Assembly: GCA_026986155.1 (NCBI GenBank) | Contig: JALSPC010000109.1 | Coordinates: 1-36,886, forward strand | DNA length: 36,886 bases | Reading direction: 5' to 3' | Source of the DNA: a bacterium | GTDB lineage: Bacteria; Desulfobacterota; S145-22 | Part shown: in pieces, positions 3,088 to 8,285 of the stretch | How the letters are laid out: the number at the start of each line of letters is the position of its first letter | Position numbering within the stretch: position 1 is the first letter of the stretch | Notes under the pieces: model-generated | Database searches by the model: none | The model's input: only the letters and a program-made list of their open reading frames with translations | Told to the model about the DNA's origin: nothing | Program-made: the position numbers and the translations under genes

Positions 3088-3117
3088 TTGGGGAGAGCAT
3101 GTAACCGCTCTCCCCAA
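3088..3117 (-). terminator. Strong hairpin terminator behind the cytochrome/barrel operon
   Basis: TTGGGGAGAGC and GCTCTCCCCAA form a perfect 11-bp stem around an 8-base loop. It lies 20 bases beyond the stop that closes the restored barrel reading frame (3138), where the operon should end. The U-tract on the minus strand is modest (AAGTATTTAT). Its position supports the idea that the interrupted barrel gene originally ended at 3138. Confidence 0.75.
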
Positions 3118-3137: not shown

Positions 3138-3597
3138 TTACAGCAGGTACTGCAACCCAATGCCAAAATAAGCGATGGACCCATCTCCATCGTAGATGTA
3201 ATATTCGTTGTCTTGAAATTTCCGGTAGTCCACGGAAAAATTCAACAGGAGATCGTTCTTTATTCGGTAGTTCGCGCTCAACCCTAAATCAATATTTTAA
3301 ATCCGAGAAATCGTTCATCTCCTCGAAGGTCGGATACTTGCTTGGCCATTCGTTTCGGAATGCGCCCCATGCGTAATTTTGAGGGGACGCAGGATTCATA
3401 GAAGTCAGTTGAGGAAGCATGTTCGGAAAACCGACGTTCCCAAAACCCGCTTTCGAATATGTGTAAGAGACGGAACCGGTAACATCGAGACGTTTAACGG
3501 GCTGATAATTCGCCGTGAGAGAAATGGAGTGATAATTAATCGTGTAGTCGACCTTATCTTCGGCCGCCCCAACCTGGGGCGTAAATGTCGAACCCGC
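3138..3597 (-). pseudogene. 3' remainder of the outer-membrane barrel gene, behind an in-frame TGA and a frameshift
   Basis: Directly after the TGA at 3600-3598 the same frame continues for about 100 codons with barrel-like sequence: alternating polar/hydrophobic strands such as SISLTANYQPVKRLDVTGSV and SVSYTYSKAGF. It then meets a second TGA. Removing one A from the run at 3295-3298 (tttt on the plus strand) restores a frame reading DLNIDLGLSANYRIKNDLLL and then NFSVDYRKFQDNEYYIYDG, ending GIGLQYLL before TAA at 3138-3140. Together with the upstream part this would give a barrel of about 870 residues. The segment may be a decayed end, two assembly errors, or partly recoded translation (see the hairpin entry and findings). 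Confidence 0.8.
3559..3592 (-). other. SECIS-like hairpin immediately after the in-frame TGA
   Basis: On the minus strand, 17 bases after the TGA, CGCCCC-AGGTT-GGGGCG forms a perfect 6-bp stem with a 5-base loop whose second base is G. Outside it TTCG (3592-3589) can pair with CGAA (3562-3559). The loop lies 22 bases beyond TGA, within the usual range for bacterial selenocysteine insertion elements, which need a short GC stem and a G among the first two loop bases. A chance GC-rich stem within coding sequence is equally possible. Confidence 0.3.
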
Positions 3598-5748
3598 TCA
3601 CCCATTAAAATAGGTAAACCAGTAATCAGTTGTCGTCTTCTCGTGGTAGAAGTTGTAGGACAAAACGAAATTGAGCTTGGGGTGTGGGGCCCACCAAGCG
3701 CTGATACCCGCGTTGAATTTCTGGCTTTTCCAGGGTGTGTCATCGTTGTCTTGATAAGAATAACTCAAAACGGGAGAGATGGAAGTGGTGGCGGAAGGTG
3801 ACCAGTTCAGGGAAAGCTCCGTCTTGTATGTATGGGATGGCTGATTGGTTCCTTCTTGGATCCTGTTTAGCGGCACGAAAAAGTCCGCGTAGTTGGAGGA
3901 ATTTCCAATATCCAGCGAAGAGGCCCCATGGACACAGACGCATCCGGGAGGATGACATGTAGGGCTGGTCGTGTTGGGATACTTTCCCGCAACCGGGTCA
4001 AAGCAGAAATTTGGAGACAATGCCGACTGCAGTGTCATCGGCCTCTCCCCCTTCGCGTGAGGATACTCGAACGGGTCGTTGTCATATTCGAAAGAAACGC
4101 CGAAGCGGCCGCTCAAATTTGATTTTGGGTAAAAATAGATGGTTCCGTCTATCGTGTGAATCGTGGGATCACCATAGCCATACTCGTTTAGATGATAATC
4201 CGCCGGAACAGGATGGATGAGATCGTCACTGTTGTCCAAGGTGATATCACGATATGACCCTGAAAGGGCCGCTTCGTTCTCCCAATACTGGAGGCCGTTT
4301 TTCCGGTTGATATCTTTGAAACGATACTCGATGCGGGCCGTAACATAGTTGTTGAAGTTGTAATTCGCTGAAGTGTCGAATTCGGTAACATCCCTGTCCG
4401 CGGCTGATTTGCGGTTGTATCCAAAATTCTGGGAAGGATTGGCGTTGATGTACCCATCATACCCCCAAAAGCTTCCTGGATTAGGAAGGAGGCTGTTGGA
4501 AGGATTTAGGGCCCCCCCGGCATCCCGCACGTAGATATCATCCGCATCGACGGTATAATATTTCAGTCCGGCGGTGAGGGTCAGTTTTTTTATCGGGCGC
4601 GAGGTGATTCTTCCCATGGCGCTCTGGGTTGTTTGGTCCAGGTCCTTATATAAGGCTTCCGTCCGGTCCTTGTCGCTCGCCTTGGAATAGACATATAAGC
4701 CGGTGATGTGGGTTTCCTTGCTCAAGTCCACTCGCGCCTTGAAGGTCTCCGTGTCTTTGTCTGTTTCCGGAACCCGAGCAAAGGGCAGGGTTGTGTATTG
4801 ATAATTCAGGCGGTTACCAAAGGTACCTTCTTCGCCCCCGGGAGGCGGAAAAGCATTTCCACCATACTGCGGGTCCCACGCGGGGGGATGGTGCGTCATT
4901 TCATAAAAATTCAAAACCCCCGCATCATCCCTTCTGAAGCGTTTACTCTTATGGGTGAAATCGAGCGTCAGAATCCCCGCTTTGAGGGTTCCCCCCGCTT
5001 TCCATACCTGCGTGGTCTGGTCCACGCGTTGGGACTGCGAAACCACGTGGCAGCTCGCGCAATGACTCATGGTCATGACCTGCCGGTATCCGGTTTTGTT
5101 TTTATAATTATATCCGCCATGGACGATAAGGTTGGGAAAAGATGGAACCTGTATTTTAAAGTTGCTTCCAAACCGCTCGATATTGTAAATGTAATCTTTC
5201 CCGACATTCAAGTCGGTATACCTGAAAGCCTTCGGGCCGTGGGTCTCCCATGCCGCGATGGAATCGTACGCCGGGTATTTTTTAAACACGAAGGAATCCG
5301 GCTGCGGGTCCGAGGGATCGTTGTTGATCCCAACTGGAATCATGAACTGGGGATTCCCAAGCGTTTGCGATTTCTTGACATAGGGGGCGTAGAATTCATC
5401 ATGATCCAGGCGGTGGATAAACTGATTGTATTTCACCTCAATCCTGAGAATTCTCGAGAAATCGAAAGCTCCGCCGGCGGCATTATCGTTGCTGTCCTTG
5501 TAGCGTCCGGTTATGTCGAGGTCGAAGTTCTGGGTGCCTCCCTTGACAAAAAGTTTAAAATCCGGGCTGGAGTCCGTCGTTTCGTACTCGGCGACCCGAC
5601 CTTTGTAGTCGTTCGTGGAATATCCATGGTATCCCGCTGAAATCCCCGCAATGAATTTTTTCTCGGGGGTCTTTTCTCCACCCGCGTACAGTAAAGCGGG
5701 AAGAAACACAACGGCGGCAAAAAGAAAAATCAAGGATCGTTTCATCAT
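3598..5748 (-). CDS. MtrB/PioB-like outer-membrane beta-barrel, partner of the decaheme cytochrome
   Basis: 716-residue open frame with a signal peptide (hydrophobic 5-22, ending LLYAGG) followed by many alternating beta strands rich in Tyr, Asp and Asn, typical of the MtrB/PioB/DmsF porins that sheathe decaheme cytochromes and carry electrons across the outer membrane. It starts 12 bp behind the decaheme gene with GGAGG before the ATG pair, so the two are co-transcribed. Unusual features are a complete heme motif CASCH at 230-234 and a Cys-rich loop (Cys582, 598, 603, 605). The frame stops at TGA 3600-3598, but barrel-like sequence continues in the same frame, so the protein is probably truncated or recoded. 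Without its last strands the barrel would not be expected to close. Confidence 0.8.
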   Translation of the reverse strand: MMKRSLIFLFAAVVFLPALLYAGGEKTPEKKFIAGISAGYHGYSTNDYKGRVAEYETTDSSPDFKLFVKGGTQNFDLDITGRYKDSNDNAAGGAFDFSRILRIEVKYNQFIHRLDHDEFYAPYVKKSQTLGNPQFMIPVGINNDPSDPQPDSFVFKKYPAYDSIAAWETHGPKAFRYTDLNVGKDYIYNIERFGSNFKIQVPSFPNLIVHGGYNYKNKTGYRQVMTMSHCASCHVVSQSQRVDQTTQVWKAGGTLKAGILTLDFTHKSKRFRRDDAGVLNFYEMTHHPPAWDPQYGGNAFPPPGGEEGTFGNRLNYQYTTLPFARVPETDKDTETFKARVDLSKETHITGLYVYSKASDKDRTEALYKDLDQTTQSAMGRITSRPIKKLTLTAGLKYYTVDADDIYVRDAGGALNPSNSLLPNPGSFWGYDGYINANPSQNFGYNRKSAADRDVTEFDTSANYNFNNYVTARIEYRFKDINRKNGLQYWENEAALSGSYRDITLDNSDDLIHPVPADYHLNEYGYGDPTIHTIDGTIYFYPKSNLSGRFGVSFEYDNDPFEYPHAKGERPMTLQSALSPNFCFDPVAGKYPNTTSPTCHPPGCVCVHGASSLDIGNSSNYADFFVPLNRIQEGTNQPSHTYKTELSLNWSPSATTSISPVLSYSYQDNDDTPWKSQKFNAGISAWWAPHPKLNFVLSYNFYHEKTTTDYWFTYFNG

Positions 5749-5760
5749 TTCGCCTCCTCC

Positions 5761-6744
5761 CTATCTCGTGAGTCTGCGCCCCATGCCCGGCCGGGTGTTC
5801 GACGGCAGATTCGAGCCGTGAACCTGGCTATGGCACTGGGTGCATTTGGTTGTCATAACCTGCTGAATGCCATTGACTTTACCGATACCATATCCCGTAT
5901 GTCCCGAGAGTCCGGAATGAAAATGCATGTGATGACACTGAAGGCAGACAAAGGGTTCATTCTGTTTCAAAAGGTTGTTGGCAACGGTTCCATGGGGATT
6001 GTGACAAATGGTGCAATTTTCAACGACGGGGGCGTGTTCGAAAACAAAAGGACCTTCCTTGTCCGCATGACAAGTGAAGCACAGGTCATTTATTCTTTCA
6101 TCCGTCTTGAGCATCCATCGGTTGCTAGCCGTGTGGGGATTGTGACAACTGGTGCAATCCATCTTACCTTCTTTGATGGGATGGTGAGACGGCATATTGG
6201 CTTCTCCCCTTTGTTTCTTGTGGCATCCATAACACAACTCGGGTTCTGATTTGGCCAGAGAAGCTTTGCTTTCTCCCTTATGGATGGTGTGACAATCTGT
6301 GCAGGCGACGTTGGACATGCTGTGCCGGGAGCCCGCCCAATCAAGTGTCTGCCCGGACGTGTGGCACCTGAGACAGATCTCTGATTTTTGGATCGGCGTG
6401 AGTTTTCTGCCCTTGAAACTGATAATTTCAGACGGATCCTCGTCTTCGATATGCTTGCTCGCGGGACCATGACACGCCTCACAGCCGTTGACAACACCCG
6501 ATACTTTTGTTTCGAACCCCTTCACCTTGCCGTGAATGGTCTTTTTAAAGGCTTTGACCGTGTCCTCGTGACAGTCAGCGCAAGCATCGCTACCCGCGTA
6601 GGCCGCCCCACTCGCAACTGCGGGAGTGGCACGATTGACGGGTTCCTCTCGAGCGGTCTTGACAATCCCCCCGGTGCAGGCAGCGAGGAAGACAGCAAAG
6701 ACCGCCAGCCCAACAAATAAAATTGTGATGGTTTTTTCCTTCAC
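5761..6744 (-). CDS. dmsE: Decaheme c-type cytochrome lipoprotein, DmsE/MtrA/PioA type
   Basis: Electron carrier expected inside or at the periplasmic face of the outer-membrane barrel encoded next. Ten CxxCH motifs are present in order: CADCH, CEACH, CLRCH, CTDCH, CYGCH, CTSCH, CFTCH, CTICH, CLQCH, CTQCH, spaced through the whole 327-residue protein as in the DmsE/MtrA family. I chose the GTG start at 6744 because AAAGGAGG stands five bases before it. This gives VKEK, a hydrophobic stretch and a lipobox LAAC with Cys23, so it is a lipoprotein; an ATG ten codons upstream has no comparable ribosome site. No outer-surface multiheme cytochrome or terminal reductase is seen here, so the electron acceptor is unknown. 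CcsB (31436) could mature its hemes. Confidence 0.93.
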
Positions 6745-7109
6745 GCGTTCCTCCTTTCCGGAAGCTTTGTCCACGAGGACAGCTTCCTATTTTATACATA
6801 CACATATAGGCTATTATAGATTTATATTTTGTCAAGCGAAAAAATTAACCTTAAGAACAGAGAACGATACTTGACAATACGTCCACCCAAAACGGGCAAT
6901 GTTGCAACCATTACGATTCTTAAGTTATAAGAATTCTATATGGATAAGATAAGATAAGCTAAGAATATTCCCGCGCAAGTTCTTTTTTATTTCTTTCATC
7001 AGGACGGGATTGACGTATCAGCAACGAAAGAAATGATATTGCAATTATCTTTATATTACGATATTTCATTTATAAATATAGACGCCCCATTGAGGTTTAA
7101 GGAGGAGCG
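6745..7109. other. AT-rich divergent control region between cytochrome operon and ArsP gene
   Basis: 365 bp without a gene. Facing the cytochrome there is a TTGACA at 6835-6830 and a TATAAT at 6818-6813 (minus strand), but they are too close to form one standard promoter, so the exact start is unclear. Facing arsP a possible TTGCAA ... TATTTC pair lies about 60 bp before the gene, and TTTAAGGAGGAGCG is an excellent ribosome site at 7098-7109. The middle holds an inverted repeat and tandem ATAAG units, listed separately. Base composition is far richer in A+T than either neighbouring gene. Confidence 0.6.
6916..6966. promoter_or_regulatory. Inverted repeat plus tandem ATAAG units, probable regulator site
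   Basis: ATTCTTA-AGTTA-TAAGAAT at 6916-6934 is a perfect 7-5-7 inverted repeat. Within ten bases follow three ATAAG units and one CTAAG, ending in another TAAGAAT half-site. The cluster lies midway between two divergent operons and could bind a common dimeric regulator. The cognate protein is not visible. Confidence 0.4.
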
Positions 7110-8285
7110 ATGAAGCGCGAATGGAAAGCCCTGGCGTTAATAACCCTTGGGTTCCTGGGAAGTTACTTTATTCCATGGGAACATCCCGTGGTTCGCCGGT
7201 CGGGCCTTGAGGCCTTTATGATGCTTCAGGAATACGCCCGGCACCATGTCCTCACGTGCCTTGTCCCGGCCTTTTTCATCGCGGGGGCCATTGCCGTGTT
7301 TATTTCCCAGGCCTCGGTTCTGAAATACTTCGGGGCCCAGGCGAAAAAGGTGCTATCCTATTCCGTGGCCGCTGTTTCCGGCACGGTGCTCGCGGTCTGC
7401 TCCTGCACGGTGTTGCCTCTCTTCGCCGGCATCTATATGCGGGGCGGGGGCATAGGCCCGGCTACCGCCTTTCTCTATTCCGGGCCCGCCATCAACGTGT
7501 TGGCCATCGTGCTGACGGCGCGGGTTTTGGGCTGGGAATTGGGGCTTGCCCGGGCGATTGGCGCGATTCTTTTTTCCGTGGTAACCGGCGGACTTATGGC
7601 CTTCATCTTTCGAAAGGAGGAGGTGGAAAGGACGGCGGGGCTGGTATTTCTGCCGGATGGCGACGATGAGACGCGGGGCCTTGCGAAGTCGGCTTTCTTC
7701 ATGGGTGTTCTGGTGCTTATCCTTATCTTTGCCGCGTTCGCCCCGCCGGCCGAAGGCGTTCATGGACTTTGGGCGACGATTTTTCGCCTGCGATGGTGGG
7801 TGGTCAGTGGTCTGCTGATTCTTCTCGCGTGGATGCTCAAGTCCTGGTTCGTGAAGGAAGAACGCGAGGAATGGGTCTCGTCCACGTGGGGATTCATGAA
7901 ACAGATTCTCCCCCTCCTCGGTGCCGGTGTTCTCGTCGCGGGCTTCATGCTTGGACGCCCCGGTCATTCCGCCCTGATCCCCCAACGGTATATTGCCGCC
8001 CTGGTCGGCGGCAACACCCTTCGCGCCAATCTCTTTGCCTCCGTTTCGGGGGCCCTGATGTATTTTGCCACCCTTACGGAAATCCCTATCCTCCAGGGCC
8101 TGATGGGTGCGGGCATGGGCAAGGGCCCCGCCCTGTCCCTGCTGCTGGCGGGTCCCGCCCTGTCCCTCCCCAATATGATCGTTATCGCCAGCGTCATGGG
8201 CGTGAAAAAAACTTTCGCCTATTGCGCGATCATCGTGGTTCTCTCCACGCTGGCGGGATTGGGGTACGGGTTTTTTATGGGGTAG
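7110..8285 (+). CDS. arsP: ArsP/YraQ-type (DUF318) permease, probable organoarsenical efflux
   Basis: 391-residue integral membrane protein with two hydrophobic halves separated by a charged cytoplasmic loop (about 165-190). The family core is clear: AVCSCTVLPLFAGIYMRGGG with Cys97 and Cys99, then FLYSGPAINVLAIVL, repeated in spirit in the C-terminal half (LLLAGPALSLPNMIVI). ArsP members export trivalent organoarsenicals such as methylarsenite and reduced roxarsone; other DUF318 proteins move other metals or are uncharacterised. It lies close to arsEFG-acr3 but is transcribed away from it, which favours the arsenic role. The start is supported by AAGGAGGAGCG just upstream. Confidence 0.75.
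   Translation: MKREWKALALITLGFLGSYFIPWEHPVVRRSGLEAFMMLQEYARHHVLTCLVPAFFIAGAIAVFISQASVLKYFGAQAKKVLSYSVAAVSGTVLAVCSCTVLPLFAGIYMRGGGIGPATAFLYSGPAINVLAIVLTARVLGWELGLARAIGAILFSVVTGGLMAFIFRKEEVERTAGLVFLPDGDDETRGLAKSAFFMGVLVLILIFAAFAPPAEGVHGLWATIFRLRWWVVSGLLILLAWMLKSWFVKEEREEWVSSTWGFMKQILPLLGAGVLVAGFMLGRPGHSALIPQRYIAALVGGNTLRANLFASVSGALMYFATLTEIPILQGLMGAGMGKGPALSLLLAGPALSLPNMIVIASVMGVKKTFAYCAIIVVLSTLAGLGYGFFMG

Follow-up and report, generated by a model that had tools for sequence, protein, structure and literature searches.

The window, meaning the whole 36,886-nucleotide stretch of DNA analysed, contained on its minus strand two adjacent genes related to OmcK and OmcL, which have been proposed to form a porin-cytochrome conduit (PMC10553843). 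In Geobacter, GSU2203 (OmcK) and GSU2204 were up-regulated on hematite and magnetite (PMC4070692), and an OmcKL conduit is expressed in a partner of methane-oxidising archaea. The features of the locus were as follows.

5761–6774, minus strand: partner decaheme lipoprotein-like cytochrome OmcK/GSU2203 (NF041028; ten CXXCH)
3601–5748, minus strand: OmcL/GSU2204-like barrel, part before the predicted selenocysteine (Sec), 716 codons, one CXXCH (NF041027, PF11854)
3598–3600, minus strand: predicted Sec UGA codon (TGA in 40 homologues, Cys in 2, TAA or TAG never)
3565–3581, minus strand: putative bacterial SECIS hairpin, 7 pairs, GGU loop at 3574–3572 (covariation; covariance-model match)
3292–3597, minus strand: barrel part after the predicted Sec, in frame, 102 codons (homologous in relatives; dN/dS 0.10–0.12 in window pairs)
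3289–3301, minus strand: second lesion, an 8-nt deletion that brought TGA 3291–3289 into frame (comparison with L100 and L080)
3138–3296, minus strand: leftover barrel tail, conserved, in the +1 frame (translation matches the L100 C-terminus)
3088–3117, minus strand: terminator-like hairpin past the original gene end (12-pair stem, then T-rich; consensus match only)

Gene, reading frame and family

The ORF of the barrel gene (5748–3601) closed at TGA 3600–3598, and the frame then remained open for 102 further codons up to the second TGA (3291–3289), in agreement with the first-pass annotation, which had described an MtrB-like frame that stops at this TGA and continues for about 100 codons. The NF041027 profile matched residues 12–716 of the ORF with 432.6 bits (cut-off 350), covering model positions 4–580 of 580, and the end of this curated model was the exact point at which the window ORF stops at the TGA. 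NF041027 is named 'GSU2204 family CXXCH-containing (seleno)protein' and corresponds to OmcL of Geobacter sulfurreducens. The MtrB_PioB profile PF11854 matched with 30.1 bits (gathering cut-off 23). The single CXXCH motif of the window barrel, C230-C233-H234, was invariant in 18 sequences. The upstream gene (6774–5761) matched the GSU2203 family profile NF041028 with 436.7 bits (cut-off 325) and encoded ten CXXCH motifs and a lipobox-like signal.

By its sequence, the window gene encodes a divergent OmcL (GSU2204) paralog, predicted to be an MtrB/PioB-like outer-membrane barrel. It shared with the NF041027 family the barrel, the CXXCH motif, the Sec position and the GSU2203-type decaheme partner. 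Unlike the canonical members, to which it showed 26–33% identity, it formed with L010 a separate long-branched clade, had a Trp seven residues ahead of Sec where many NF041027 members have Cys, and carried a later frameshift. MtrB/PioB barrels (PF11854; MtrB 6R2Q) were similar in barrel type and decaheme pairing and gave the best structural match, whereas the OmcL-type family has its own CXXCH and Sec, and its cytochrome is lipoprotein-like. The ExtKL selenocysteine cytochrome of Geobacter (NF040886) is likewise a predicted selenoprotein in an outer-membrane electron-transfer cluster; unlike the window gene, it is a multiheme cytochrome and has no barrel.

The TGA column in homologues

When 395 genomes of the phylum were searched with the NF041027 profile, 43 matches exceeded the cut-off. 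The codon after each match lay outside the search target because NF041027 ends before Sec, and this codon was TGA in 30 of 30 cases among the best 30 of the 43 matches. Ten more genes had TGA at this column (the window gene, L010, L011, L013, L081, L082 and L084–L087), which gave 40 in total against no TAA or TAG among the homologous genes examined. All 40 ran on into homologous barrel sequence, and most were otherwise intact. The same TGA was present in separately assembled relatives.

Two homologues, L078 (G050) and L079 (G327), had TGC (Cys) at the Sec column, in the contexts FVG-C-FSES and YIG-C-FSES compared with FNG-U-AGST. In a tree computed with the columns around Sec left out, these Cys forms branched from within the Sec forms (SH-aLRT support 100%). 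The exchange of Sec for Cys is a classic comparative mark of a selenoprotein. Neither Sec nor Cys was present at the column in two divergent homologues, namely L077 and the first of the genes in L080. In L080 (G001:C34), from a sister species, this complete homologue was located about 2 kb from a truncated Sec copy. L078 (G050:C87) also carried an in-frame TGA of its own at codon 569, where relatives have Arg; this TGA seems likely to be a nonsense mutation or a sequencing error and not Sec.

Putative SECIS hairpin

The hairpin downstream of the TGA, CGCCCCA-GGT-TGGGGCG, was formed by arms 3581–3575 and 3571–3565 of the minus strand. Bacterial SECIS elements are described as having a loop of 3–9 nt, a stem of 4–16 bp, a G in loop positions 1–2, a distance of 16–37 nt from the UGA and an energy of at most -7.5 kcal/mol (PMC13188914). 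With a GGU loop, 7 bp, a loop start 23 nt past the UGA and a hairpin energy of -11.9 kcal/mol, the window hairpin lay within these published limits on all five counts. The first-pass annotation had placed a perfect stem with an AGGTT loop 22 bases after the TGA. The hairpin itself was real, but the details were refined: AGGTT follows after 22 intervening bases and the GCCCC stem after 17, and the loop is GGT. The outer TTCG/CGAA pairing proposed there was present in the window letters but broken in the closest relative, L010, and therefore probably lies outside the element.

Taken alone, the hairpin was only mildly unusual. The fold of the single 50-nt sequence was uninformative (z = -0.73), and a hairpin by similar rules followed 76 of the 1184 TGAs of the window (6.4%), among which this one ranked tenth. 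What sets the predicted element above chance is its conservation and covariation across relatives. No structure emerged when RNAalifold was run ungapped on the full set of 38 sequences, because in some clades the hairpin was shifted by a base or had another loop size; pairs were afterwards counted on the in-register set only. In these 23 sequences the seven pairs were formed in 88.8% of cells, and one stem pair was G-C in 10, A-U in 9 and C-G in 3 sequences. The covariation score was 0.281 compared with 0.117 ± 0.021 after shuffling, none of 500 shuffles scored as high, and the score dropped when the pairing partners were slid by one base. The conservation of the hairpin is partly coding because its bases also encode protein.

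A SECIS covariance model trained without the window, L010 and L080 gave 3597–3553 as the only clear match in the 36.9 kb (23.4 bits, E 9.2e-5; next 0.51), so that the hairpin was recovered by an independently built model as well as by the published rules. This model also found L010 and L080, but it matched neither of the two Cys homologues (L078, L079) nor L077. L060 was also searched and corresponds to a training sequence. The predicted SECIS hairpin has been lost in the Cys homologues. The Rfam scan returned nothing convincing at the hairpin site. An 18-row protein alignment contained no stretch conserved enough for a scan of the collection; a scan with a seven-row protein alignment yielded six named loci.

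Selenocysteine machinery and predicted decoding of the TGA

All four genes of the Sec pathway, selA, selB, selC and selD, were present in the same genome. The tRNA-Sec (selC) had the anticodon TCA and scored 78 bits, and SelA, SelB and SelD matched with 615, 357 (cut-off 242) and 376 bits, respectively. The selD gene had its own in-frame TGA (L091, G000:C17:1590-2513), so SelD is probably a selenoprotein itself, as is the case in many bacteria.

The first-pass suggestion that the TGA may encode Sec was borne out by the TGA column, the Cys exchange, the covarying hairpin and the Sec machinery, and the window TGA is almost certainly a selenocysteine codon. SelB and tRNA-Sec would decode the UGA at 3600–3598 as selenocysteine, guided by the bacterial SECIS hairpin just downstream, and we infer from these comparisons that Sec is actually inserted there.

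Were the gene instead a decaying pseudogene, its TGA a nonsense mutation and the hairpin a product of chance, the second lesion 300 bp downstream and the truncated copy in the sister species would be in keeping with this. The first-pass annotation had indeed counted that lesion as favouring decay; the lesion is real, but it is distinct from the TGA and arose later. The conservation of the same TGA in 40 homologous genes, including distant intact ones, Cys as its only replacement in close forms and the selection that persists past it led to rejection of the nonsense mutation, which is very improbable. A changed genetic code in which TGA encodes an ordinary amino acid would likewise leave the frame open across the codon, but the relatives exchange to Cys and a full Sec system is present. 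Moreover, TGA serves as an ordinary stop within the window, where other genes end in it (e.g. the ArsG gene ending at 1144); this reading was rejected and has a negligible probability.

Selection and fate of the window copy

From the TGA to the second lesion, the approximate dN/dS values, obtained with synonymous sites near saturation in these pairs, were 0.12 (window and G003), 0.10 (window and G001) and 0.27 (G001 and G003). The stretch after the TGA was therefore maintained as protein. At the second lesion, near 3300, the window was 8 nt short compared with the intact relative L100/L010 of a related genus, and the deletion left the barrel end (3296–3138) in the +1 frame, with the tail still well conserved. 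In L080, from a sister species of the same genus, the 5' part was lost and one base was missing at another spot. At G000:C140, the genome from which the window comes still has an undamaged canonical Sec copy, accompanied by a decaheme partner of its own.

Judged from these relatives, the second lesion arose separately from the TGA, at a later time and in this copy only. With its last strands out of frame through the 8-nt deletion, the window copy is probably inactive, and a finished Sec protein may not be made from it. Read most simply, the sequences suggest that this genus is in the course of losing its second copy and that the loss in this species is recent.

Two other explanations of the lesion keep the Sec codon. 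If it came from misassembly or from a minority variant, the copy would be intact and functional, and the conserved tail and the draft state of the genome (197 contigs) suit this explanation. An 8-nt deletion is atypical of base-calling, and the sister species shows independent damage in the same paralog; an artefact is accordingly possible but the less probable account. The conservation of the tail in the +1 frame could also reflect a programmed +1 frameshift by which the end of the barrel is regained. However, 8 nt are missing compared with the intact relative, the sister copy is damaged differently, and L100 and the canonical copies all lack a shift at that place, on which ground this very unlikely mechanism was rejected. 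It is highly probable, taking the sequence comparisons as a whole, that the UGA is decoded as Sec through a SECIS element in an OmcL paralog, that this copy was later frameshifted and that the canonical copy is intact.

Structural models and predicted position of the selenocysteine

The structures of two relatives were modelled with low confidence, also near Sec (mean pLDDT of 49 and 55). The best fold match of both models was Shewanella MtrB (6r2q_B), with E values of 1e-14 and 1e-12; no relative turned up when solved structures were searched by sequence. For the topology, strands were counted back from the periplasmic C-terminus, with short turns assigned to the periplasm and long loops to the outside. 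Sec was residue 718 in the L100 model, between strands 693–713 and 729–752, and residue 583 in the L096 model, between strands 558–578 and 594–617. In this topology Sec would be located in an extracellular loop and the CXXCH heme site in another.

The OmcL barrel and the decaheme OmcK (GSU2203) would together carry electrons across the outer membrane, and Sec, near the outer mouth, may serve as a redox or ligand residue. That a surface Sec by the barrel's own covalent heme joins electron transfer, as a heme ligand, a metal-binding or a redox residue, is a speculative and rather unlikely proposal; the surface selenol beside the heme is an idea and not a result because model confidence is low near Sec. 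If true, the outermost redox site of the conduit would be a selenol within the barrel itself. The Trp at minus seven in the window clade makes a fixed Cys-Sec pair unlikely as a general rule. The literature searched gave no description of what Sec does in this barrel.

The MtrB/PioB-type selenoprotein appears in reviews of 2022 (PMC9312934) and 2026 (PMC13188914). Since these reviews and the NF041027 name already record the family, there is little novelty in the Sec assignment. The present analysis adds to the family a second, divergent clade and Cys homologues that lack the hairpin, supports the SECIS element by covariation, and indicates that the two 'stops' of the window gene differ in nature, one recoded and the other damage. 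Gene callers that halt at the UGA drop the final portion of the barrel, and an OmcL-type protein is thus easily annotated as a truncated or broken one. Decoded as Sec, the UGA gives back the full barrel and singles out one residue for testing in a conduit for extracellular electron transfer that is found across the phylum.

Neighbouring genes

Just downstream of the conduit genes, the minus strand at 1144–2599 gave matches to an ArsE-type thioredoxin (TIGR00412), ArsF (NF040494) and ArsG (NF040495; 274.6 bits, cut-off 200). The gene after ArsG, below 1040 on the minus strand, resembled an arsenite-type permease by eye only. Between the conduit gene and these genes, just downstream of the former, was an AT-rich promoter-like stretch, TTGACA...TATATTATTATATAG (3067–3038, minus strand). 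Similar stretches occurred near L080 5650 and L100 5060, three species in all, and they are possibly a promoter or regulator site of the next operon. On the plus strand, a permease gene (7110–8285) showed below-cut-off similarity to SaoE and to SO_0444-type Cu/Zn efflux transporters.
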